Below, piece after piece: positions 1,707 through 18,397 of a stretch of DNA of 30,998 nucleotides (position 1 is its first letter; each line of letters begins with the position of its first letter). The position numbers and the translations under genes were made by a program. The stretch is from a virus, in IMG/VR virus record IMGVR_UViG_3300021091_000269, positions 1 to 30,998 of that record. The stretch is one strand, 5' to 3'. The notes beneath the pieces were generated by a model. That model did not search any database. It was not told the origin of the DNA and saw nothing but the letters and a program-made list of their open reading frames with translations.

Positions 1707-4700
1707 TTATACTTCTGCAGTTACAATCATACCATGAGCAGCGTGCTCATTGATTAGTGATAGTCCACTTTGTTTATAGACATAATAAATTCTGTGTAGA
1801 CCAGCACCAAGAGTTCTTGACCAGCTAGTACTTACAGTCTGGTTGTCGCCTTGTGTTTCTCCATAGAAAGCATCAACTGGGACGAAAATTCCAGAACCAG
1901 ATGAAGTTTCACCAGAGAGTCCAGAACCGGCACCATCAACGGTAACACCAACGTCAACGGAATCTAAACCAATTGTCTGATAACAAATAACTTGAGCTGT
2001 GCCAGCACCGCCGGCTACAGGGTTATTGTAAATATCACTGAATGATGTAATAGAAGAATCATCTGCGGTTAGGACTTCAATTCTTGCTTTTGCACCATAT
2101 GTTGGAGGTGAACCCCATGGATACCACTGGTAGGTATTCCAAGAACTTGCAAACATGAATCTTTGTGAAGATCTATATGTGTTATAGAAGTTTGCAATTC
2201 CAATAGTTGGAACATCAGCTTCAGCAAGGTTATTAGCAAGTCTTCCACCCAATTTAACCGAACAAGTACCTGCTGTAGCACCAGTCTTGACAAGACCAAT
2301 ATATCTCTTGGAAGCATCAATTCCACCAACTGAACCTTTGGTTACAATACCTTGTACCTTCGCTCTGGTTGGAGGGGTGTGAAAGTCTGACCATGCAGTA
2401 TACTCAACTTTTAGGTCTGGAGTTGTAACACTGCCAGCATTATAGAGGTATACATCAAATACTGTGTTAGCAGTAAGAGCTGTTCCGCCAGCTTGACCAT
2501 CTGAAGTAAAGTAGAACTGTTTGCTGTTTTCTGGAACTGGAACAATCGTCCAAATATTATTCTGATAGTCATATAGAGAAATTTCATTTCCTCTGAATGG
2601 GTGTAAGTACCAAGATGTTGCGGCACTGACATCAACAGTTGGATATAGGAAACCAGTTCCTGCACCAGGAGCATTCAGTGACATTCTGATATTTGTTAGA
2701 CCCTTGATACTAGATGCAGTTTTACTTGACAGTGCATATGGTGTAATTGCAATACTTTCCGAAGTACCAAGTGCTGCTTCTGCAGATGTTGATAGTCTTA
2801 CGAGACCAGCGGCATCAGTCGTCGCCGCTTTAAGATCAGATGTAACACCAGAAATAGCAAGTTTAGTTGAAACAACTAGAGTTGAAATAGTTGCGGTATC
2901 TTGAACAGTCAAACTAGTTGTTGTAAACGAGTTTGCAAGTCCTTGGAGTTGAGTTAAGAACGATTGCTGTAACTGAGAAATGTTGCTTGTGAGTGACTGG
3001 TTAACCTGTGCAATACTATTAGTGATAGAGTTGAATGTGTTTGAATAGTCAATCAAACGAGTCTGTGAAGAAGTTCTTACAGCAGGTACGTTTAAAGTTA
3101 CAGTCTCATATCCACCAGCATCCTGAATGTTGTTACCAATATAGAACTCACCAGAACTGTTAGTACCAGTAGATGCGTTTAGGCCACCGTTGAGATCAAG
3201 AGTTTGAGAGACAAACTGCTCTTGTCTCGAAAGAACAACTTGGTGGAACTGTGGTAGAGCGGTTGAATAGTTACCAGAACCATAGCCTATGTATTCCCAA
3301 GTGTGAGAAGATGCGCGAATGATTGATGGTCTGTGTAGTTTGACGTTAACATCGTTAACGTCAATTCTTCTATCACTTCCACGAACGTCTTTACCATGAG
3401 TATTCTGAGTGGCATTTGACTGATATGGGGTTGAAGTTGAAACTGCAGTCGTGGTGCCGTTATACTGAAGACCTAACTGAGTGATGATCTTGTCGCACGT
3501 TTCTCTGGTTAGAGAAGTAAACTGTAAATCATTTCCAGTTGGAGCTGAAATAAATAGGTTCTTCTTAAAAGTATTGTTGTTTGCAGCAACGTTAAGAATT
3601 TTAACCTTTGATATTGAAGATCCTGGGTTCCAGTTTGGTTGATCTTCATCAATAGTTGGATATAGATAGTTGATGTTTTGAGTAACCCCATCAGGAATTA
3701 TATTAACGCCCTCATAGAGATAAATTGCGCCTGGAGCGACAGTAGATTCCGTTGTATTCCTAACTGAACCAAGTAAACAAGTTAGATAGTAAATACCATC
3801 CTGCTCCCCGAAGATATAATCCTGTTCCGTATCAACACTTAAAATATAAAATACATCATTTACCGAACCAGTGTTTGGACGAAGAATAAATCTTCTCTCT
3901 GGTGGTTTGCAGTTTAGATTTTTTGGAAGAGTATATTCTATTCTCCAAAGAAGTTCAGAGTTTGCAATAGAAGTTCTAGTATCAGCAACTCTTTCTAGGC
4001 CAACGTTGGTTGTGCCAGCTGTGAAGTAGTACTGATAGGTTTTCTTGGTTGCAACCTCAATTCTAGTATGGAATACACCCAAAATACCAGAAGTAGTTGG
4101 AGTTGGCTGTTTTGTAATTACGAAAGCTGTATTATTCCCGGCGCTAGAAAAAGTAAGTGCAGGACCATTAATAGTTCTTGCAAGTTTAAAGTTGTTTCCA
4201 GACTTACCAACAACAAAATATGGAGTAATTGAATTTAATTGTCCTAAGTTATCTGTTGGGGTTGGATATGTTGATACGGTACTGATTAAAACTTCATCGT
4301 TATTGTTAATGGTGTGTGCAGAACCAACCGAGAATGTGCCATCAGTTGCATACCCGCTTGAATTTACTACAGTATTAGAACCAGTTGTAGGAGCAGTAGT
4401 CAACTTGAGGTATAGATAACCATACTTTTTACCAAGATTTGGACCAGTAGTATGAGTTCCAATGATATCAAAACCATAGCCGAGTCTTTCGAGATTATTG
4501 GCATCATTGTAACTTGGGTCTACTGTCGATGAAGTTGTTCTGATCAGATCTGTGTAAGTTGTTCCACTAAGAGTAAAGAGAAGAGTCTCATTAGTCTTTT
4601 TGGTTAAGAGATATTGACTGGTTGTACCGAATGCAAGATATCTTTTATTTACGCCCTGTTCAATAAGTGTGAGTTCTTGAATTTCATCTTCATTGATTTG

Positions 4701-6666: not shown

Positions 6667-6700
6667 GGAAATCCTGGCCAGATTCACTATTTAATACATA

Positions 6701-6784
6701 TAGGGCGAGGGAGACTTGAACTCCCACGGGCATAAGCCCAACAGATTTTAAGTCTGGTGTGTCTACCGATTTCACCACCGCCCC
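6701..6784 (-). tRNA. tRNA-Leu (anticodon UAA)
   Basis: A class II tRNA cloverleaf is readable on the minus strand. The acceptor starts GGGGCGG and pairs with UCGCCCU (G-U pairs at the two ends). The D-arm has AAATCGGTAGAC. The anticodon stem CAGA/TCTG closes a CTTAAAA loop, giving UAA. The variable arm is GGGCTTATGCCC, and the T-arm is GGGAG TTCAAGT CTCCC. Discriminator is A and CCA is not encoded. It would read UUA codons, which are abundant in these AT-rich genes. A sigma70-type promoter lies upstream at 6887-6915. Confidence 0.93.
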
Positions 6785-6886
6785 AAAAAACTCGAAAAGG
6801 CCACGGACCAATTTTTGGCCGGGAATTTTTTTCGGAGATTTTGGTAAACAGAATTCAATTTTCGCCTAGAGAAGACTGAAGTCTAA

Positions 6887-9801: not shown

Positions 9802-11142
9802 TCAATTTTTGCCCTCTAACATAACTTGACCGCCAGTAGTTACAGGTTGATCTGCTACTGGTTGACCACCGAAAGAATCTCTGGTTAAGGTTACGGTAGT
9901 TCTAAGTTCTGATCTATTTATGATGGTATGTTTAATTGTATTAACCATATATCTACCACTAATTCTAGCATCTTCTACAACTTTTTCTTTACTTTTTTGT
10001 TCTGGAGATGGTATCGAAACATAAATCATGTTCCCACATCTGTTTTCAAGATCTCCTGGAATATTTATTTCCATATGATTATACTCTAGAAAATAATACC
10101 TAAAGAAAACTTTCTCAAAATTTAAATTTGCTGGATCAATATTATTTGTCGATTCAGTATTTTGATCTTCTTTCCATCCCCAGGTATTAATTGTAGTTGG
10201 TCTGTATATAAATCTGCTGCCTCGTTTTAACAAATCTACATTACCTTGTACTGTAGTTTTAAATGGTTTTACTTTTTCGGCATGACTACTATTTTCCCAA
10301 AATTCATCTGCATTTTTTCTGAATACTCTATAGGATCGATTATTAATATCAACATAGATACACTCATGAGCAAAAGCACCTCGTCTTAAATCATCATACA
10401 TATCAAAGACTTTTGGAGATGAGTAATTCATAATTCTATATTTTTCATCTGCAGCCCCTGTTCCACCACTGGACTGATTACCTTGAAAGAAAGTATAATT
10501 TGTTTTGTCATTTGGATATTGTTTTTGGTCTAAAAGTCTATCAACCGAATTGTAATTAAACCCATCAAAAGTTTCGTAAAATAAGTATCCAATTGAATTT
10601 TCTTTGTACTCCGGCACAGATCTTCTTGATAACCAAATGATAGTATCAAAGGGTCTCCAATTTGGTATGTACATATTAAAAGGATATACACTAACATCTG
10701 GAGTGGATATTTTTTTAGTTGTAAAATTACTTTGTTGTAAGATTTCTTTTACAAGCTCTTCTGATTTTTTTCCATCAACTCTCTCACATATTCTAAAATT
10801 TTCATTTCGCAATCCTTCTAGAGAAACACAACTTAATACATAAGACTGATTTTTTTCTTGCATTGTACGACCATCAATCTTATAGATAAAATATTTTAAA
10901 TCGTATAATATTTTATTGCTTTTTATAATAATTTGTATCTGTTCTTCTCCCATGAGTGGAAGTTTATTAATTAAGTTTTTTTCAATGTCTTGAATTAAAA
11001 TAGTGCACTGCAAAGATGCGCTATGAATACTTTCATATAAAGTAATTTCCTTAACAAGTAGTTTGATATCTATTTTTTCTTCAAAGTGAGGATACAACCA
11101 AACTTCTTTGAGAGAAAAATCTCCAGGAAAATCTCCAGCCAT
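9802..11142 (-). CDS. gp27: Baseplate hub protein, gp27-like
   Basis: 446 residues; T4 gp27 is 391. The order (after tape-measure genes, before gp5-like) and the sequence type fit a hub protein: an N-terminal beta domain (YESIHSASLQCTILIQD), then a second tube-like domain with SYVLSCVSLEGLRNENFRIC, YIPNWRPFDTIIWLSRRSVP and a C-terminal RYMVNTIKHTIINRSELRTT. The WRPFDTI..L element is common in gp27/gp44/VgrG hub folds. It should form the trimeric cup that joins the gp5 spike to the tail tube. Its ATG overlaps the stop of the upstream gene by one base (TAATG). Assignment is by fold-type reasoning, not close sequence identity. Confidence 0.78.
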   Translation of the reverse strand: MAGDFPGDFSLKEVWLYPHFEEKIDIKLLVKEITLYESIHSASLQCTILIQDIEKNLINKLPLMGEEQIQIIIKSNKILYDLKYFIYKIDGRTMQEKNQSYVLSCVSLEGLRNENFRICERVDGKKSEELVKEILQQSNFTTKKISTPDVSVYPFNMYIPNWRPFDTIIWLSRRSVPEYKENSIGYLFYETFDGFNYNSVDRLLDQKQYPNDKTNYTFFQGNQSSGGTGAADEKYRIMNYSSPKVFDMYDDLRRGAFAHECIYVDINNRSYRVFRKNADEFWENSSHAEKVKPFKTTVQGNVDLLKRGSRFIYRPTTINTWGWKEDQNTESTNNIDPANLNFEKVFFRYYFLEYNHMEINIPGDLENRCGNMIYVSIPSPEQKSKEKVVEDARISGRYMVNTIKHTIINRSELRTTVTLTRDSFGGQPVADQPVTTGGQVMLEGKN

Positions 11143-14100
11143 TATAGTTTATTTAACACATCTGTTGTTGTTATAAAAGTATTTATTGGTAATGGAGTAA
11201 TAGTTAAAGCACCAAAATTAGTTGATCCTTGTTGTATAATTGTAGTGTTTGAAATCTTGGATGTAATTGAACTCATTTTTTTATCCAAAGTAAAGTTGGA
11301 GCTCATACTTGGTAGAGCAGAAGATGGTGGTGGAGCAGAAGGAGTGGTCGGAGCAGACCCAGACCCTCCCCCACCTGTCATTCCAAGATTTGCCATTAAA
11401 TATTTTAATTGTTCTATACTTGCCCCCGATCCCATGAATCCTGGATCAACCTTTTCTTCTTTTTTATCATCTGATGCCGGAGAATCTGTCTGTGATGAAG
11501 AATTTGAAGCGGGCCCACTACTTTGATCACCAAGATCATCAACCTTTCCAGCACCTTTACCAAGTAAATTTATGAGCATTTTTGAAGGTTTAATTTCTTG
11601 ATATTGTTTCCAAAAATCTTTATCTGCTTTAGTTCCAGCAGCTCCCCCAACATCAATACCTATACAACCAGCAGTTCCATTGTTTCCAATATCATTATGA
11701 AACATTAAACCACTTCTGCTACCCAATGAACCACTAGAGTTACCAATATAAACAGACCAATCTCCTAATCCTGCCATAATATGTCCATGATAATCAGCAC
11801 CAACTAAAGAATATGTACCATCTGGATGGGGAGACATTTTTGTATGGAAACGATCTTTTTGTGAGACATTACGCTTACTTGATATTCCTGATCTTGCCTT
11901 ATAAGATTTTCCTACCTTGGCACCACCTTGATACATTGAAAGTGTTCCTGTCCATCCAGAACCATCACCATCAACTTTTATCATTCCTCCTCCCGCCAGG
12001 GATTGAAGTATCATAGACATTTTCTTTTTACGATCAGTTATAGCTTCTTCATTGGGAATAAAATTAAAATCTTTCATGGATGGTTGAACCATACCACTTT
12101 TAGGATTATATTCTCCTCCACCACTCATGAACAGTGGAATGATGCCACCAGCAGATGCTAATTTAACTCCACTGAAGGAAGGAACTTTTGCAATTCCTTT
12201 ACCAGAATAATTAAAATCCCATCCAAAATAATTATCACCACGTTTTCTTTGAATCTGACCTCTTCTTGCACGCTTTGAATATCCAGTAAAATCTGTTCTA
12301 CCTTGAACAAATTCTGCCGCTTTTGCTTGAAGACCAGAATTTGTAATTGCTTTTGCAGCAGATGCAACATGATTTTCAGATGCGCCAACTGCAGCTGCTG
12401 CCGATTTAATGTCACTAATATTCAACCACTGTGGATTTGGGTTTCCATCACCCCTAGTTGGTCCATTTGGATATCTCCATGTTGGTTCGTACTGCCATGT
12501 ACTGATGAGAAGATCTTTTATAGTTTTTCCACCATAAGCTCCAGAAGCTAGTCTATTATAGATTGATTGAGCAACGTCTGCTTGACCCTGAGGATCTCCA
12601 TCTTCTCTGGAAGCAACTGCAGCAAGAGTCCAGAAATCTGCACTCTTACCCTGAGGTATTGGACCAGTAGGTACTGGAGCTGGTTTGTCTCCATTAGAGG
12701 CATCATCTTTTTCTGACTTATCCTTCTGGTCATCTTCATCCGAATCTTCGGCCGAATCACTTGGGTATTCATCTCCCGCTTGAAATTCTGCAGCAGATGC
12801 AGGGCCCATCAATAAATTTGCACCTTTACCTAACCCACTTGCAAATGTATCCTTAGTAAATCCAAATATTCTGATGAATGGATTAAACATTTGTAATGCT
12901 ATTGGACCCATAAGAGCACCAACAGAACCCATGGATTTTAATACCCCAAGAGTTCCACCAATAACGGCAGAAGCTACTGTTTTATACGGCATTAATATTG
13001 TTGAAGCAAGTTTATTAACAGGAATAACTACTTCTTCCCCGTGTAATGTAACCTTATATCCAGAATCTGGTCCAGATGCAATACCACCAGTGTTCAACTG
13101 AGGCATAGACTTTTGAATTGTCTTGCCAAGAGGTGCAATTACTCCATCATATAACCAACCAGCTAACCAATCTCCCAACAAACCTCCGGCAAGACCACCG
13201 AGAACAGTTCCAGCACCAGGAATAATACTACCTAAAGCACCAACAACAAATGTGCCAAGAGTAGCACCAATCGCCTTTACTACTGCCTTATCAATAGGAT
13301 CTCCCAAGAACATATTGATTGGAATTGCTAATAGAGTACCAACTACAGGAACTCTTTTAACAAAACCAGCTAAAGGCCTAACAACTGTTTTAATTATAGT
13401 TTTTGCAATCGGTTTAATAAATTTGGTTATACCTTTACCAAATACTTTTAAGAATATTCTTTGAACAGCTCCCTGTATTCCTTTCTTGAACAAACTTGCA
13501 GCAGTTGGGAATATTTTTTTTACTGCATCTCCAGCTTTACTAAGATTTTTTCCACTAAGAGCTTTAAATAAATCTTTAAAATTTCCTATATTTTTGTAAG
13601 CCCACTTCAAATCACCAAGTAGTTTCAGTGGGTTTAGAATTCTTCTGAATAGAAAAATTCCAAATAACATCTCAAAGAATCCAAAGATTCTTTCAAGAAT
13701 ACTTCCACCGCCAAATAGTTTTGTGAAACCACCAAGTGTTGCATTCACTGCAGTTCCAACGAAGAATGAGAATACTTTGAATACTCCCATCAAACCCTTA
13801 ACCATTAACAAAACAGCTTCTTTATTTTCTGGTTTTGAAATCCAATCTAAAATTCCATATGTAAGTATGGCTTTGAGAATACTAAACAAACCAAATCCAA
13901 CCTTCTCTGCTGCTTTCTTTCCTACTTTATTAAGAAATTTAGATCCAAATCGACCACCAGAAGATTCCATAGATTGTTCTTCTGATTTTTTGCTTTCTCT
14001 TTCTTTTACTTTTTTTTGAGTTTCTGCATACTTTGACTCAAGTCTAACTCTTTCAGAACGCATCTGAAATAAATTATTAACCAACTTGGTTAATAATTCT

Positions 14101-14351
14101 AATTTCAAACCAAGTTTATCGTTCTGTTGTTTAACTAGTGCCGATTCTTTTTTAATTCTATCTCGTTCTAATTTATCTCTTTTAACTAATGCAGATTGAG
14201 GTTTGATTGGGGGTTTTTTAGTTCCTTTTTTGGTCGCCGAAGCATATCCCATACCCATGGATTTTTTAAATGCTTTCTTTCTCTCCTCTGAGGTTAAATA
14301 CTTTCCAGTGGTTGGATCAATACCAGTGTTAAGAATTGAATTTAAATCCAT
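11142..14351 (-). CDS. Tape-measure-like tail protein with SleB-like and L,D-transpeptidase-like domains
   Basis: 1069 residues. The N-terminus is basic with a coiled coil (~50-120). At ~165-480 are long hydrophobic, Gly-rich helices beginning at LDWISKPENKEAV (FVVGALGSIIPGAGTVLGGL), typical of tape-measure proteins. An acidic linker follows. A domain at ~568-740 resembles cell-wall hydrolase SleB (AAVASREDGDPQGQADVAQS, YNRLASGAYGGKTI, NYFGWDFN). A second domain at ~790-930 contains MFHNDIG..GTAGCIGIDVGG, like the His...Gly-Cys motif of YkuD or DUF5675 proteins. At ~970-990 is the GFMGSGAS..QLKYLMANLGM motif shared with the next protein. It lies 5 nt after its paralogue. Inferred: tail-length or hub protein delivered into the envelope to cut peptidoglycan. 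Confidence 0.75.
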   Translation of the reverse strand: MDLNSILNTGIDPTTGKYLTSEERKKAFKKSMGMGYASATKKGTKKPPIKPQSALVKRDKLERDRIKKESALVKQQNDKLGLKLELLTKLVNNLFQMRSERVRLESKYAETQKKVKERESKKSEEQSMESSGGRFGSKFLNKVGKKAAEKVGFGLFSILKAILTYGILDWISKPENKEAVLLMVKGLMGVFKVFSFFVGTAVNATLGGFTKLFGGGSILERIFGFFEMLFGIFLFRRILNPLKLLGDLKWAYKNIGNFKDLFKALSGKNLSKAGDAVKKIFPTAASLFKKGIQGAVQRIFLKVFGKGITKFIKPIAKTIIKTVVRPLAGFVKRVPVVGTLLAIPINMFLGDPIDKAVVKAIGATLGTFVVGALGSIIPGAGTVLGGLAGGLLGDWLAGWLYDGVIAPLGKTIQKSMPQLNTGGIASGPDSGYKVTLHGEEVVIPVNKLASTILMPYKTVASAVIGGTLGVLKSMGSVGALMGPIALQMFNPFIRIFGFTKDTFASGLGKGANLLMGPASAAEFQAGDEYPSDSAEDSDEDDQKDKSEKDDASNGDKPAPVPTGPIPQGKSADFWTLAAVASREDGDPQGQADVAQSIYNRLASGAYGGKTIKDLLISTWQYEPTWRYPNGPTRGDGNPNPQWLNISDIKSAAAAVGASENHVASAAKAITNSGLQAKAAEFVQGRTDFTGYSKRARRGQIQRKRGDNYFGWDFNYSGKGIAKVPSFSGVKLASAGGIIPLFMSGGGEYNPKSGMVQPSMKDFNFIPNEEAITDRKKKMSMILQSLAGGGMIKVDGDGSGWTGTLSMYQGGAKVGKSYKARSGISSKRNVSQKDRFHTKMSPHPDGTYSLVGADYHGHIMAGLGDWSVYIGNSSGSLGSRSGLMFHNDIGNNGTAGCIGIDVGGAAGTKADKDFWKQYQEIKPSKMLINLLGKGAGKVDDLGDQSSGPASNSSSQTDSPASDDKKEEKVDPGFMGSGASIEQLKYLMANLGMTGGGGSGSAPTTPSAPPPSSALPSMSSNFTLDKKMSSITSKISNTTIIQQGSTNFGALTITPLPINTFITTTDVLNKL
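11180..11187 (-). promoter_or_regulatory. Possible late promoter -10 (AATAAATA) for the hub genes
   Basis: AATAAATA on the minus strand inside the last codons of the 1069-aa gene, 38 nt before the gp27-like ATG. The spacing is the same as at the other late boxes here, but the motif could be chance in coding AT-rich sequence. Confidence 0.35.
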
Positions 14352-14356
14352 GGATA

Positions 14357-17300
14357 TTAGAAGTTAAAGGGATATGTTGCCCATTTTCCATCTTTGGGAA
14401 GAGTTCTGCCCAGATTTCCCGATTCTATCATTGACGTTGCACTAGAAATATCTTTATTTTCTGATGCAATAACTTGGACACCACCTGGTTTTCCAGCACC
14501 AGCAAAAGACTGCGCTACAATATTTTTAGTTTGAACATCACTAAGTTGTTGCCCACTACTACTCATGCCAAGATTTGCCATCAAGTATTTTAATTGAGCC
14601 TCACTTGCTCCAGAACCCATGAATCCAGAAGATGCAGCGCCCCCCGATGAAGAAGTATCTCCCCCAGCTGCGGCACCAGTAGAGCCCGCAGCCTCACTAC
14701 CAGCACCAGTATCTCCAACATCGCCGCCGCCAGGACCACTAGCAAATCCTAGGTGTAAATGAGTTGGGTGTCCGCCGATGGCACCACCTTTACTTCCCTC
14801 ACCAGCAAACCAAGATCCCCATGGATCATGAATAATTTGAGTTAGTTTTAATTCATTTCTCTTTTGATATAAAGCTTCTGCCAGCTGTTTAGTTCTTCCC
14901 AACCAATCACCAGATCTCCAGTCAGTAACATCTAATGCAAGTTTTTTGTAATGCAAACTTCCATTACTATGTCCCCCTACTCTTTGATTTCCAGAAGGAT
15001 CAAAGGATCTACCAGCAAAGTTTGGGTGTTCTTTTACAGTGAACCCCTTTGATATAAGTTGTTTGCCAACATTAATTACAGCCGGGAGACCTCCAGTACT
15101 TGGGTTTTGACCACTTCCTTTAGTCACTGTTGGTTCGGCGGCAGTATTATGAACTGGTCCACCTGATGCATATGGTAATGCATATCCACCAGATTTAGCC
15201 TCACGTATTCTTCTACCAATCAATCCACCATTACTTCTGGTAGCAGGAGTGTCATATGGGATTATGAATGCACTGTTCAGTGATCCACCATTAGCTTTTC
15301 TAAATCCAACCCACTCAGTTCCATGTCCAATAAAGGCAGTTGACATTCCACCATCTAGAGAAACTGGATATCCAGACTGTGGTCCAGAAATCCAACCACC
15401 TTTAGCTTTAGTTGGTGGTGAAGATTCAAAAGGTATAGTTGGTCCAAATCTATTGTCTGTAGGTTTTTCCCAAGCATCTGAAGTTGCTCCTGTTTTACTT
15501 CTACCTTGCCCATCGGTGCCTTTAGACTTTAAGGTAGCCCCCATCTCATAGCTAAAATATCCAACTGGAGTTTGATCCATTCCAGGTAAAATTTTTACTT
15601 GTCCAGTCTTTAAATCTCTTACTAAAGGTCCGCCAAGACCAGTTAACATTTGTTTATCACCAGAAGATGTAATATCTGTTAATGGATCTCCTGGTTTTTG
15701 CCACATGAATACATCCCCAGATGAATTATACCAATACTTTCGGTTTCCGCCATCTACTGGCATCAATCCTGTTCCTGGTGAATATTCTTTTGTATTTCCT
15801 CCACCTCTAGTATTACCAACTATTCTTTCTGTTCCTTTTACTCCCTTAAGAGTTCCATCTTCTCTCATCCCATCAACAGATTTTATACTCTCGATTGCAG
15901 TGTTTGTAGACCCGCCGGTTGCACCTCCACCTTGAGCTCCAGATTTAGCAGGTGGATCTGCTGGCGGAGAGTCCCCGGCGGGGCCCCCTGCAGCAGGTTT
16001 CTTTTCCTCTTTCTTTTTCTTTTTTTCTTTCTCTTTTTCTTTCCTTTTCTCTGGACTTTTGCCTAATACCATACTTGCAAGAGAAGGTGGTAAGTCAAAT
16101 TTAGAAATTATATTTTGAAGAATTGGTTTAATAAATGGTCCAATTCCAGGAATTTTTCCAACAGTATTCATTATCAAAGCAATCATTGCGGCACCCACTA
16201 ACTTAAATGGCATGGTTAGTAAGTTCATAAACATTTTTATGGTTTTTCCAATGTAATTACCTACACCAGAAATTTTAGATAGACCGTCTAAAGGTTCTAC
16301 CTTAACTCCATCTTTACTAACAACTCCACCTTCTTTTAGTTGTGGAGTTTCATCACCACTCTTATCCCCGCCGCCGAACATATTTTTAATAGCACCTATC
16401 GGATTTAATACAGCGCCAGCAACACCTTTAATAAAGTTTGTAGTTTTTTGCAGTGGATTTTCTTGTTTTTGTGGTTGAGGAGCATCTGTACTAGAATTTT
16501 CTGTAACCGTTTCTTTTTTTTCTTCTCCTATACCAAAGAAACCTTTGATGGCATTGCCAATTAAATCAGCTGCACCACTCACCAATCCAAACGTTAGAAA
16601 ATCTATAACAGATTTAATGACATTGGTTGCCATATCTGCAATTGATTTTGGTATATCAAACAAATCTTTTATAAACCCAAGAGGATTTGTCAACCACTTG
16701 AGTGAAAATATATTAACTATTGCTTCTATTAATTCGCCAAATACTTTAAAACCTCCCGTCACAAGTTCTTTAACAATATTAAATATTGGACCAAGAAGAA
16801 ATTTGCCAAGGAATCCTAACAGTTTTCCAACATTCATAAAAAACTGTATTGTATTCTGTATGGCTTTACTATTTTCTGGTTTTGAAATCCATTCTAAAAT
16901 TTTATACTTAATAAAAGCAGAAACTAAATTTGTAATAAAATCAAAGATACCCGTAAATGCTTTTTTACCGCCTTCTATAATTGGATTTTTATCAGACTTT
17001 TCTTTGGAGGTTTCTTGCCCAGATTGTTCTGAGGATCTTGCATCTTTCTCAGAACTTCTAGCAAAATTTAAAATTTGATCTTCAAGTTTTTTTCTATTTT
17101 CTTCTTCTATTTCTATTAATTTTTTAAATGCACCAATCAATACATCAAACTTACTAAGTATATCGGAACCGCCAGACTTTACTATTGCAGATGACTTTCT
17201 AGATACAAGTGCTCCGCCGCCAGTTGGCACTATAGCTCCTCCCCCTCCGCCGGCAGTTGACCCCTTTACAGCAGATGCAAACCCTTCTACGACACTGACA

Positions 17301-17500
17301 TTAACTGGTTGTACTGTCTGATCTTCTTTATTTCTACCACCAAAGGCTGTTCCAGCGACCCCTCGGATTCCTCTTCCAATAGTAGAACCAATTCCATCAC
17401 GTACTGCAGCGCCAGTGACACCACGAACTGCAGCGCCAGCGAGACCACGAGCTCCGGCGCCCAGCGCAGCTCTACCAAATAAAGCACCAATTCCTAGCAT
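14357..17500 (-). CDS. Tape-measure-like tail protein with peptidase M15-like domain
   Basis: 1047 residues. Ala/Gly/Arg-rich start (MLGIGALFGRAALGAGARGL), coiled coil at ~112-150, then hydrophobic helices at ~190-480 beginning with LEWISKPENSKAI, paralogous to the 1069-aa neighbour. A Lys/Glu-rich run lies near 490 and Gly-rich linkers follow. Residues ~800-925 contain GSLHYKKLALDVTDW, matching the SxHxxGxAxD zinc motif of M15 peptidases with the middle Gly replaced by Lys, plus HPTHLHLGF at ~910. This suggests a metal-dependent peptidoglycan peptidase. The GFMGSGAS..QLKYLMANLGM motif recurs at ~958-978. The gene begins one nt after the frameshifted chaperone frame ends, the place where tape-measure genes normally lie. 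Counterpart of T4 gp29 by position. Confidence 0.78.
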   Translation of the reverse strand: MLGIGALFGRAALGAGARGLAGAAVRGVTGAAVRDGIGSTIGRGIRGVAGTAFGGRNKEDQTVQPVNVSVVEGFASAVKGSTAGGGGGAIVPTGGGALVSRKSSAIVKSGGSDILSKFDVLIGAFKKLIEIEEENRKKLEDQILNFARSSEKDARSSEQSGQETSKEKSDKNPIIEGGKKAFTGIFDFITNLVSAFIKYKILEWISKPENSKAIQNTIQFFMNVGKLLGFLGKFLLGPIFNIVKELVTGGFKVFGELIEAIVNIFSLKWLTNPLGFIKDLFDIPKSIADMATNVIKSVIDFLTFGLVSGAADLIGNAIKGFFGIGEEKKETVTENSSTDAPQPQKQENPLQKTTNFIKGVAGAVLNPIGAIKNMFGGGDKSGDETPQLKEGGVVSKDGVKVEPLDGLSKISGVGNYIGKTIKMFMNLLTMPFKLVGAAMIALIMNTVGKIPGIGPFIKPILQNIISKFDLPPSLASMVLGKSPEKRKEKEKEKKKKKEEKKPAAGGPAGDSPPADPPAKSGAQGGGATGGSTNTAIESIKSVDGMREDGTLKGVKGTERIVGNTRGGGNTKEYSPGTGLMPVDGGNRKYWYNSSGDVFMWQKPGDPLTDITSSGDKQMLTGLGGPLVRDLKTGQVKILPGMDQTPVGYFSYEMGATLKSKGTDGQGRSKTGATSDAWEKPTDNRFGPTIPFESSPPTKAKGGWISGPQSGYPVSLDGGMSTAFIGHGTEWVGFRKANGGSLNSAFIIPYDTPATRSNGGLIGRRIREAKSGGYALPYASGGPVHNTAAEPTVTKGSGQNPSTGGLPAVINVGKQLISKGFTVKEHPNFAGRSFDPSGNQRVGGHSNGSLHYKKLALDVTDWRSGDWLGRTKQLAEALYQKRNELKLTQIIHDPWGSWFAGEGSKGGAIGGHPTHLHLGFASGPGGGDVGDTGAGSEAAGSTGAAAGGDTSSSGGAASSGFMGSGASEAQLKYLMANLGMSSSGQQLSDVQTKNIVAQSFAGAGKPGGVQVIASENKDISSATSMIESGNLGRTLPKDGKWATYPFNF

Positions 17501-17501
17501 T

Positions 17502-18397
17502 TTAACCGCTCATCCTTTGTTTTTGTCTGTCGTTTTCTTCTTTAATGTAGTCAATTAACATTTGAATATAAACTTCTCTTTCCCAAGGAATCATATTATC
17601 AAGTTCGGTTAGACTATATTTATGATGTTGCATGAGAGTAAAGTTAACTGCATAAAAATTTTCTATATTCTCATGAGATAGTGCTATGCGAAAAAAGATG
17701 CGAGTCCCTCAATTACAATCTCACTCTCAACTCCAGTATTGGGATTTTTAATAGTAACTTTATGAGTAAGTTTTGGCATAGTTTCAAAGAATTTTTGCAC
17801 ACTAATAAATTGTTGCGAGCTCATGCCCTCAAGAAATTCCTTAACTTCTTTTTTAGAAAAATTACTTGTCTCATATACATCTTCACCTTCTACAATTTGA
17901 GAGATACATGATCCAGCAATATCAAACACATCATCAACATCTGGGTTAGATGAAATATTGTTCTTAACAAATAGATCCATACTTGGATATTTCATCACAA
18001 TAGAAATACCAGATCCCATATCAATAATGTTCTCATGACCTTCTTGTTTATTTACTTTGATATCATCAATATCTATTTTTATTGGAACTGTAGTTTCGCC
18101 ATCATCTGGACACGTTGCTGTAAGTTCAATTTGTTCTCCAACAGACTTGCCACGAATATTAAGAAATATATATTCAATGTCAAATAATGCTAATTCATCA
18201 ACTTTAATTTTTGTAGTTTGAATACAATTTTTTAGAATTGTTTTAACTGCTTCGGTCATTTGTTTTTCATCCTCAGATTCCATAGCAAGAAGAAGAATTT
18301 TTTCTTCTTTAACTAGAAACGGACGATACTTAATTTTTTGTCCAGTAGATGGAAGTTCCAACTCATATGTTGGCGTAACAAGTTTTGGTAAAGGCAT
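17502..18397 (-). CDS. -1 frameshift product: gp26/51-like chaperone with C-terminal extension (298 aa)
   Basis: Reading as for the zero-frame gene up to TTT TTC, then slipping back one base at 17690-17696, continues for 62 residues (RIALSHENIENFYAVNF..., SLTELDNMIPWEREVYIQML, IDYIKEENDRQKQ) to a TAA at 17504-17502. The result is 236 + 62 = 298 residues. The extension is open, has normal phage codon use, and ends with an amphipathic, charged helix like the T part of lambda GT chaperones. No ATG with an SD precedes most of it; the only in-frame ATG (17633) would give just 43 residues. Position directly before the tape-measure-like gene is as in G/GT systems. Strongly supported by sequence, but not shown experimentally here. 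Confidence 0.75.
17684..18397 (-). CDS. gp26: Baseplate hub assembly / tail chaperone protein, gp26/gp51-like
   Basis: 237 residues, MPLPKLVTPTYELELPSTGQ, then IKYRPFLVKEEKILLLAMES. This N-terminal signature is that of the T4 baseplate protein family (gp26 type), which acts in hub assembly. A central acidic beta region with two Cys (TCPDDGETTVPIKIDIDD) may bind metal or simply be structural. The C-terminus includes KKEVKEFLEGMSSQQFISVQ and EIVIEGLASFFA. The gene starts 42 nt after the gp54-like gene, with a late box at 18434. Near its end lies a slippery heptamer, so this may be the short partner of a G/GT-like pair. Confidence 0.8.
   Translation of the reverse strand: MPLPKLVTPTYELELPSTGQKIKYRPFLVKEEKILLLAMESEDEKQMTEAVKTILKNCIQTTKIKVDELALFDIEYIFLNIRGKSVGEQIELTATCPDDGETTVPIKIDIDDIKVNKQEGHENIIDMGSGISIVMKYPSMDLFVKNNISSNPDVDDVFDIAGSCISQIVEGEDVYETSNFSKKEVKEFLEGMSSQQFISVQKFFETMPKLTHKVTIKNPNTGVESEIVIEGLASFFA
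17690..17710 (-). promoter_or_regulatory. Programmed -1 frameshift signal
   Basis: On the minus strand: SD-like GAGGGA (17710-17705), 8 nt, then T TTT TTC (17696-17690) in zero frame, then GCA TAG. The heptamer fits X XXY YYZ with full re-pairing of both tRNAs apart from the TTC wobble position. The upstream SD-like element at this distance is like that of E. coli dnaX. No strong stem-loop was seen just downstream. Confidence 0.75.

Follow-up and report, generated by a model that had tools for sequence, protein, structure and literature searches.

Background

Tail assembly chaperone genes read by -1 frameshifting, lambda G/GT among them, were reportedly described by Xu, Hendrix and Duda in 2004, and the 2022 work of Vladimirov and colleagues reportedly found frameshifting to be conserved across several groups of T4-like phages, with T4 itself using genes 26 and 51. 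A frameshifted chaperone is not new for T4-like phages, one having been reported in 2022 (Vladimirov, Gautam and Davidson, Virology 566:9-15, as cited in PMC12846349 and PMC10274946). The citing papers describe polyT -1 frameshift signals in the TAC-N genes of T4-like phages (PMC12846349) and, for some T4-like phages, separate short and long genes (PMC10274946). The gp51 of cyanophages has been described as having about 20% of the usual length, with the first approximately 200 residues absent, in a study whose available text contains no mention of a frameshift (Sullivan et al. 2010, PMC3037559).

The present work analyzes a site of this type in an uncultivated virus, using a stretch of 30,998 nucleotides which is referred to throughout as the window. 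To what was already described it adds a survey of loci, statistics on the stimulatory elements, and a correction of the cyanophage "gp51" annotation. The sequence evidence presented below leads us to assign a probability of roughly 0.94 to the reading that programmed -1 frameshifting occurs at this site and produces a short (TAC-N) and a long (TAC-NC) tail assembly chaperone.

Organization of the locus

The source virus is T4-like, with a host group that is probably cyanobacterial, and all of the features described here lie on the minus strand. The gp26-type gene (18397-17684), which is assigned by PF12322 and phrog_150 and encodes the putative 237-aa TAC-N, has a 3' end that reads ATT GAG GGA CTC GCA TCT TTT TTC GCA TAG. 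Read directly from these letters, an SD-like GAGGGA (17710-17705) is followed after a spacer of 8 nt by the slippery heptamer T TTT TTC (17696-17690), which would place TTT in the P site and TTC in the A site, and a single sense codon, GCA, separates the heptamer from the 0-frame stop TAG (17686-17684). The -1 frame becomes open merely 12 nt upstream of the slip site; after the slip it would run from CGC (17690) through GGT (17505), an extension of 62 codons that specifies a gp51-type TAC-C domain as judged from phrog_634, from codon-position differences and from alignment with T4 gp51, and it ends at TAA (17504-17502), 1 nt from the ATG of the next gene (17500). The long product would thus comprise 236 + 62 = 298 aa. 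The initial annotation had described this same succession of motif, spacer, heptamer, sense codon and stop, and a base-level reading of the minus strand bears out every number in it; the 62-codon length of the -1 frame, its end 1 nt before the next ATG, and the product sizes of 237 and 298 aa likewise agree with the coordinates.

The short form has the C-terminal peptide NPNTGVESEIVIEGLASFFA, and the protein ends in ...EIVIEGLASFFA. The junction peptides predicted for the long form are NPNTGVESEIVIEGLASFFR and IALSHENIENFYAVNFTLMQHHK, and the predicted tryptic junction is ...EIVIEGLASFFR, with a junction peptide ending in ...ASFFR; one junction peptide is thereby supplied that can be searched for in existing infected-cell proteomes. 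Of the approximately 60 A/T-type X XXY YYZ heptamers that lie in frame in the window (20 ORFs, 8,410 codons), no other is followed by a -1 frame that passes the stop of its own gene; the open length here is 62 codons, compared to 26 for the runner-up.

The next gene (14357-17500) encodes 1047 aa and had been called tape-measure-like in the initial annotation, a description that goes by its position and size and that no family model echoes: family-model and PHROG searches gave no match to a tape measure model, the best family is phrog_1200 'endolysin', and no similarity was found to the 'putative tail tape measure' of pelagiphage HTVC008M. This gene and a second one (11142-14351, also on the minus strand) are tandem giant genes whose products are distant paralogues (E=9e-15) that share a WISKPEN region and a GFMGSGAS..QLKYLMANLGM tail, and their best family matches are to 'endolysin' and unknown PHROGs.

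Domain identity and predicted fold

The short ORF is identified as PF12322 T4_baseplate with E=3e-74, over the curated cut-off, and matches phrog_150 with E=1.5e-80, while the 62-aa peptide of the -1 frame matches the gp51-type phrog_634 with E=6.6e-27. NCBIfam holds no model for gp26-type or gp51-type proteins, and a PDB sequence search with both profiles returned nothing meaningful. Within T4 itself, gp26 (208 aa) matches the short domain only, gp51 (249 aa) consists of the short domain followed by the C-terminal domain, the two proteins are distant paralogues (E=2e-6), and residues 209-244 of gp51 align with the -1 peptide of the window. Because gp26 holds the short domain alone and gp51 holds both domains, T4 appears to encode the short and long forms separately. 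The residues described as absent from cyanophage gp51 would come from gp26 by way of the frameshift.

AlphaFold2 models the short form with a pLDDT of 88 and the -1 domain as three helices with a pLDDT of 85. A second-look alignment of the short form against the PDB gave 3fgx and the HK97 tail assembly chaperone 2ob9 at Z 7.8, followed by 5ir0 at Z 5.0 and then a gap to 2.8; the match to 2ob9 covers 84 residues with an rmsd of 4.0 at a Z under 8. The predicted likeness to the HK97 chaperone fold is moderate, and it is treated as supportive only because Foldseek alone gave an E of about 1, which is not significant.

Conservation of the site among relatives

The survey comprised 366 loci from viral contigs and named phages, 360 of them usable, from which 174 representatives with less than 90% identity were drawn. 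Alignment across these relatives, as the initial annotation had proposed, shows both the heptamer and the -1 reading frame to be essentially invariant: TTTTTTN stands at the end of the gp26 gene in 356 of the 360 usable loci, and all 347 TTTTTTN loci with enough DNA encode the gp51-type domain in -1. The heptamer is mostly TTTTTTC, then TTTTTTT and TTTTTTA, with TTTTTTG occurring once. The site is found in cyanophages, the cultured S-PM2, Syn9 and P-HM2 among them, in pelagiphage HTVC008M, Pseudomonas pf16 and Vibrio Schizotequatrovirus, and also in Aeromonas AS-zj, Rhizobium RL38J1 and Stenotrophomonas Mendera.

All six T's are invariant in 174/174 representatives, and exactly one sense codon separates the heptamer from the 0-frame stop in 155 of them. 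The codon preceding the slip can be AGT, GAT, TCT, AAT, GCT, ACT or CGT (seven codons for six residues), always with T as its third base (n=174), and the A-site codon can be TTC, TTT, TTA or TTG, with Leu replacing Phe in 21/174 while the T's stay intact. Since the flanking codon and the A-site residue vary while the T's do not, it is the nucleotides, rather than the residues, which are conserved. Elsewhere, Phe-Phe pairs are written as T TTT TTY in 19 of 382 cases (5%).

Two candidate exceptions were looked at more closely. In one locus (L262) the gene stops prematurely at 162 aa, which is likely an error because it is otherwise 99% identical. The other is the Stenotrophomonas phage IME-SM1 (L087), in which the heptamer run near position 3229 is one base short compared to 14 near-identical records, so that gp26 runs on in an incorrect and longer frame; its relative Mendera has the base (GAT TTT TTC GGC TGA), and the missing base is probably a sequencing error.

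Five Ackermannviridae-type relatives, namely Vibrio K445, PhaxI, Dickeya PP35, Vibrio SUMAE and Serratia phiMAM1 (L091 and L368-L371), keep the gp51-type frame in -1 and have no X XXY YYZ heptamer at the end of the gp26 gene, the site there being NTT TTC, where N is A, C or G. Vibrio K445 and Dickeya PP35 have TAATG at the gp26 stop; given these sites, single-codon slippage and reinitiation are both possible in this group.

Candidate stimulatory elements

Pairing with the 3' end of 16S rRNA in the region approximately 9-18 nt upstream of the slip site has a mean energy of -6.3 kcal/mol across the 174 representatives, compared to -1.9 kcal/mol in the gene body and a mean of -5.2 kcal/mol after synonymous recoding, and 0 of 40 simulations reach the observed value. 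These energies indicate that the SD-like element is selected beyond the expectation from synonymous recoding.

Directly 3' of the site, windows of 50 nt are more structured than their shuffles (mean z about -1.9). Compared to recodings that keep the -1 protein, the mean z there is -2.16, against approximately -0.3 elsewhere, and p<=0.05 is reached in 53% of cases directly 3' of the site as opposed to 9-20% elsewhere. In the window itself the predicted fold contains a candidate stem with the 5' arm CATGAGA (17675-17669) and the 3' arm TCTCATG (17637-17631), which is weak (p about 0.15), and relatives with 80% identity to the window (L005, L006, L008) have a strong stem at the same place; it is possible that the stem acts in the window as well. 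RNAalifold found no common downstream fold in the largest clade with ungapped 60-nt alignments (114 loci, 69 distinct sequences), for which reason the downstream structures are regarded as lineage-specific, and double changes were almost absent in the other clades. An Rfam scan of the window returned one tRNA and nothing else; a tRNA-Leu (TAA) gene lies at 6700-6785 on the minus strand.

A broader interpretation for the T4-like marine phages, which we offer tentatively and rate at somewhat below even odds, is that the slippery heptamer has stayed fixed and each lineage has reinvented, within the overlapping -1 coding sequence, the stem-loop that tunes it, in which case turnover of unrelated RNA structures would keep the chaperone ratio; an Ackermannviridae-like branch may have lost the heptamer and may slip on NTT TTC.

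Coding status of the -1 frame and competing explanations

Over 150 nt the -1 frame has 0 stops in 172/172 loci, each other frame having about 5 or more, and the third codon position of the -1 frame takes 51-58% of the differences between sequences, a pattern which indicates that this frame is under protein-level constraint. One alternative is that the -1 domain is a separate small gene, gp51, translated without any frameshift, either from its own internal ATG or by termination and reinitiation where gp26 ends, and a small 'gp51' is in fact annotated there in most cyanophage records. The annotated starts of this gene disagree widely between relatives, however, giving products of about 30 to 60 aa, and in some records the stretch counts as intergenic. 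An ATG does lie near the stop in some lineages (for example TTTTTTC TAATGG in S-CRM01), and reinitiation could contribute in the 10 of the 174 representatives in which an ATG close to where the -1 domain begins is accompanied by an SD-like sequence; against this, 117/174, the window included, have no ATG, GTG or TTG before the conserved domain, and in the window the -1 frame reaches its first ATG approximately 20 residues inside the domain, with no SD-like sequence found upstream of that ATG. A separate gene would, moreover, leave the invariance of the T's under changing amino acids unexplained, and we consider it highly improbable as an account of the site.

The run of T's itself suggests two other explanations, both of which are less probable still. 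Six T's could slip during transcription, so that stuttering of the polymerase would yield a mixed pool of mRNAs, but in 137 of the 174 representatives the third base of the A-site codon is C, which keeps the run short at 6 T, and the selected SD-like element and downstream RNA structure implicate the ribosome; this possibility is accordingly given very little weight. Least probable, to the point of being negligible, is an error of sequencing or assembly in what is truly one continuous ORF, or a decaying virus copy: homopolymer errors are real, as IME-SM1 illustrates at this same site, but the T TTT TT run and the -1 relation recur in cultured phages as well as across hundreds of separate assemblies, and the survey refutes it.

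Proposed mechanism and comparison with known systems

Under programmed -1 frameshifting, one start codon would give rise to two tail assembly chaperones. The majority of ribosomes would terminate at TAG and release the 237-aa TAC-N, of the T4 gp26 type, while a fraction would pause with TTT in the P site and TTC in the A site, aided by base pairing between 16S rRNA and the SD-like GAGGG that lies about 10 nt upstream; in many relatives a downstream stem-loop would help as well. Both tRNAs would then re-pair on TTT TTT and reading would continue in the -1 frame, generating the 298-aa TAC-NC with its helical, gp51-type C-terminal domain. By analogy with lambda G/GT, both forms may coat or recruit the tape measure protein and the tail tube subunits, and both would be absent from the finished tail. 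The sequences themselves show the signal and how well it is conserved, that the -1 frame is coding, that starts are lacking, and how the gene relates to T4 gp26 and gp51; intracellular slippage, the rate at which it happens, and a function of the products as chaperones are what we infer from these features.

These results indicate that the small 'gp51' annotated in hundreds of cyanophage genomes is no gene of its own but the end of gp26 reached by frameshifting, and that genes 26 and 51 of T4 correspond, in split form, to a single frameshifted gene. T4 carries two diverged genes on opposite strands, whereas the window carries a single frameshifted gene.

The proposal in the initial annotation that this gene is the myovirus counterpart of lambda G/GT gains support from the heptamer, the constraint on the -1 frame, the scarcity of starts, the selection on the SD-like element and the T4 gp26/gp51 relation. 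The likeness to G/GT lies in a slippery heptamer near the 3' end of the gene, in a short and a long form, and in the place before a long, putative tail gene; lambda is a siphovirus, however, its heptamer differs from T TTT TTC, and the likeness rests on features other than sequence. The dnaX gene likewise has an SD-like element approximately 10 nt upstream of its slippery heptamer and a stem-loop 3' of it, as many relatives of the window do, but its heptamer is A AAA AAG, the stem in the window is weak, and the -1 product of the window is longer than the 0-frame product instead of shorter. There is also a close likeness in kind to the T4-like TACs of Vladimirov, Gautam and Davidson (2022), which belong to the same gene family and have the same proposed output of a short and a long chaperone; the window locus differs in coming from an uncultivated relative, and the SD-like and stem-loop statistics come from the present analysis.
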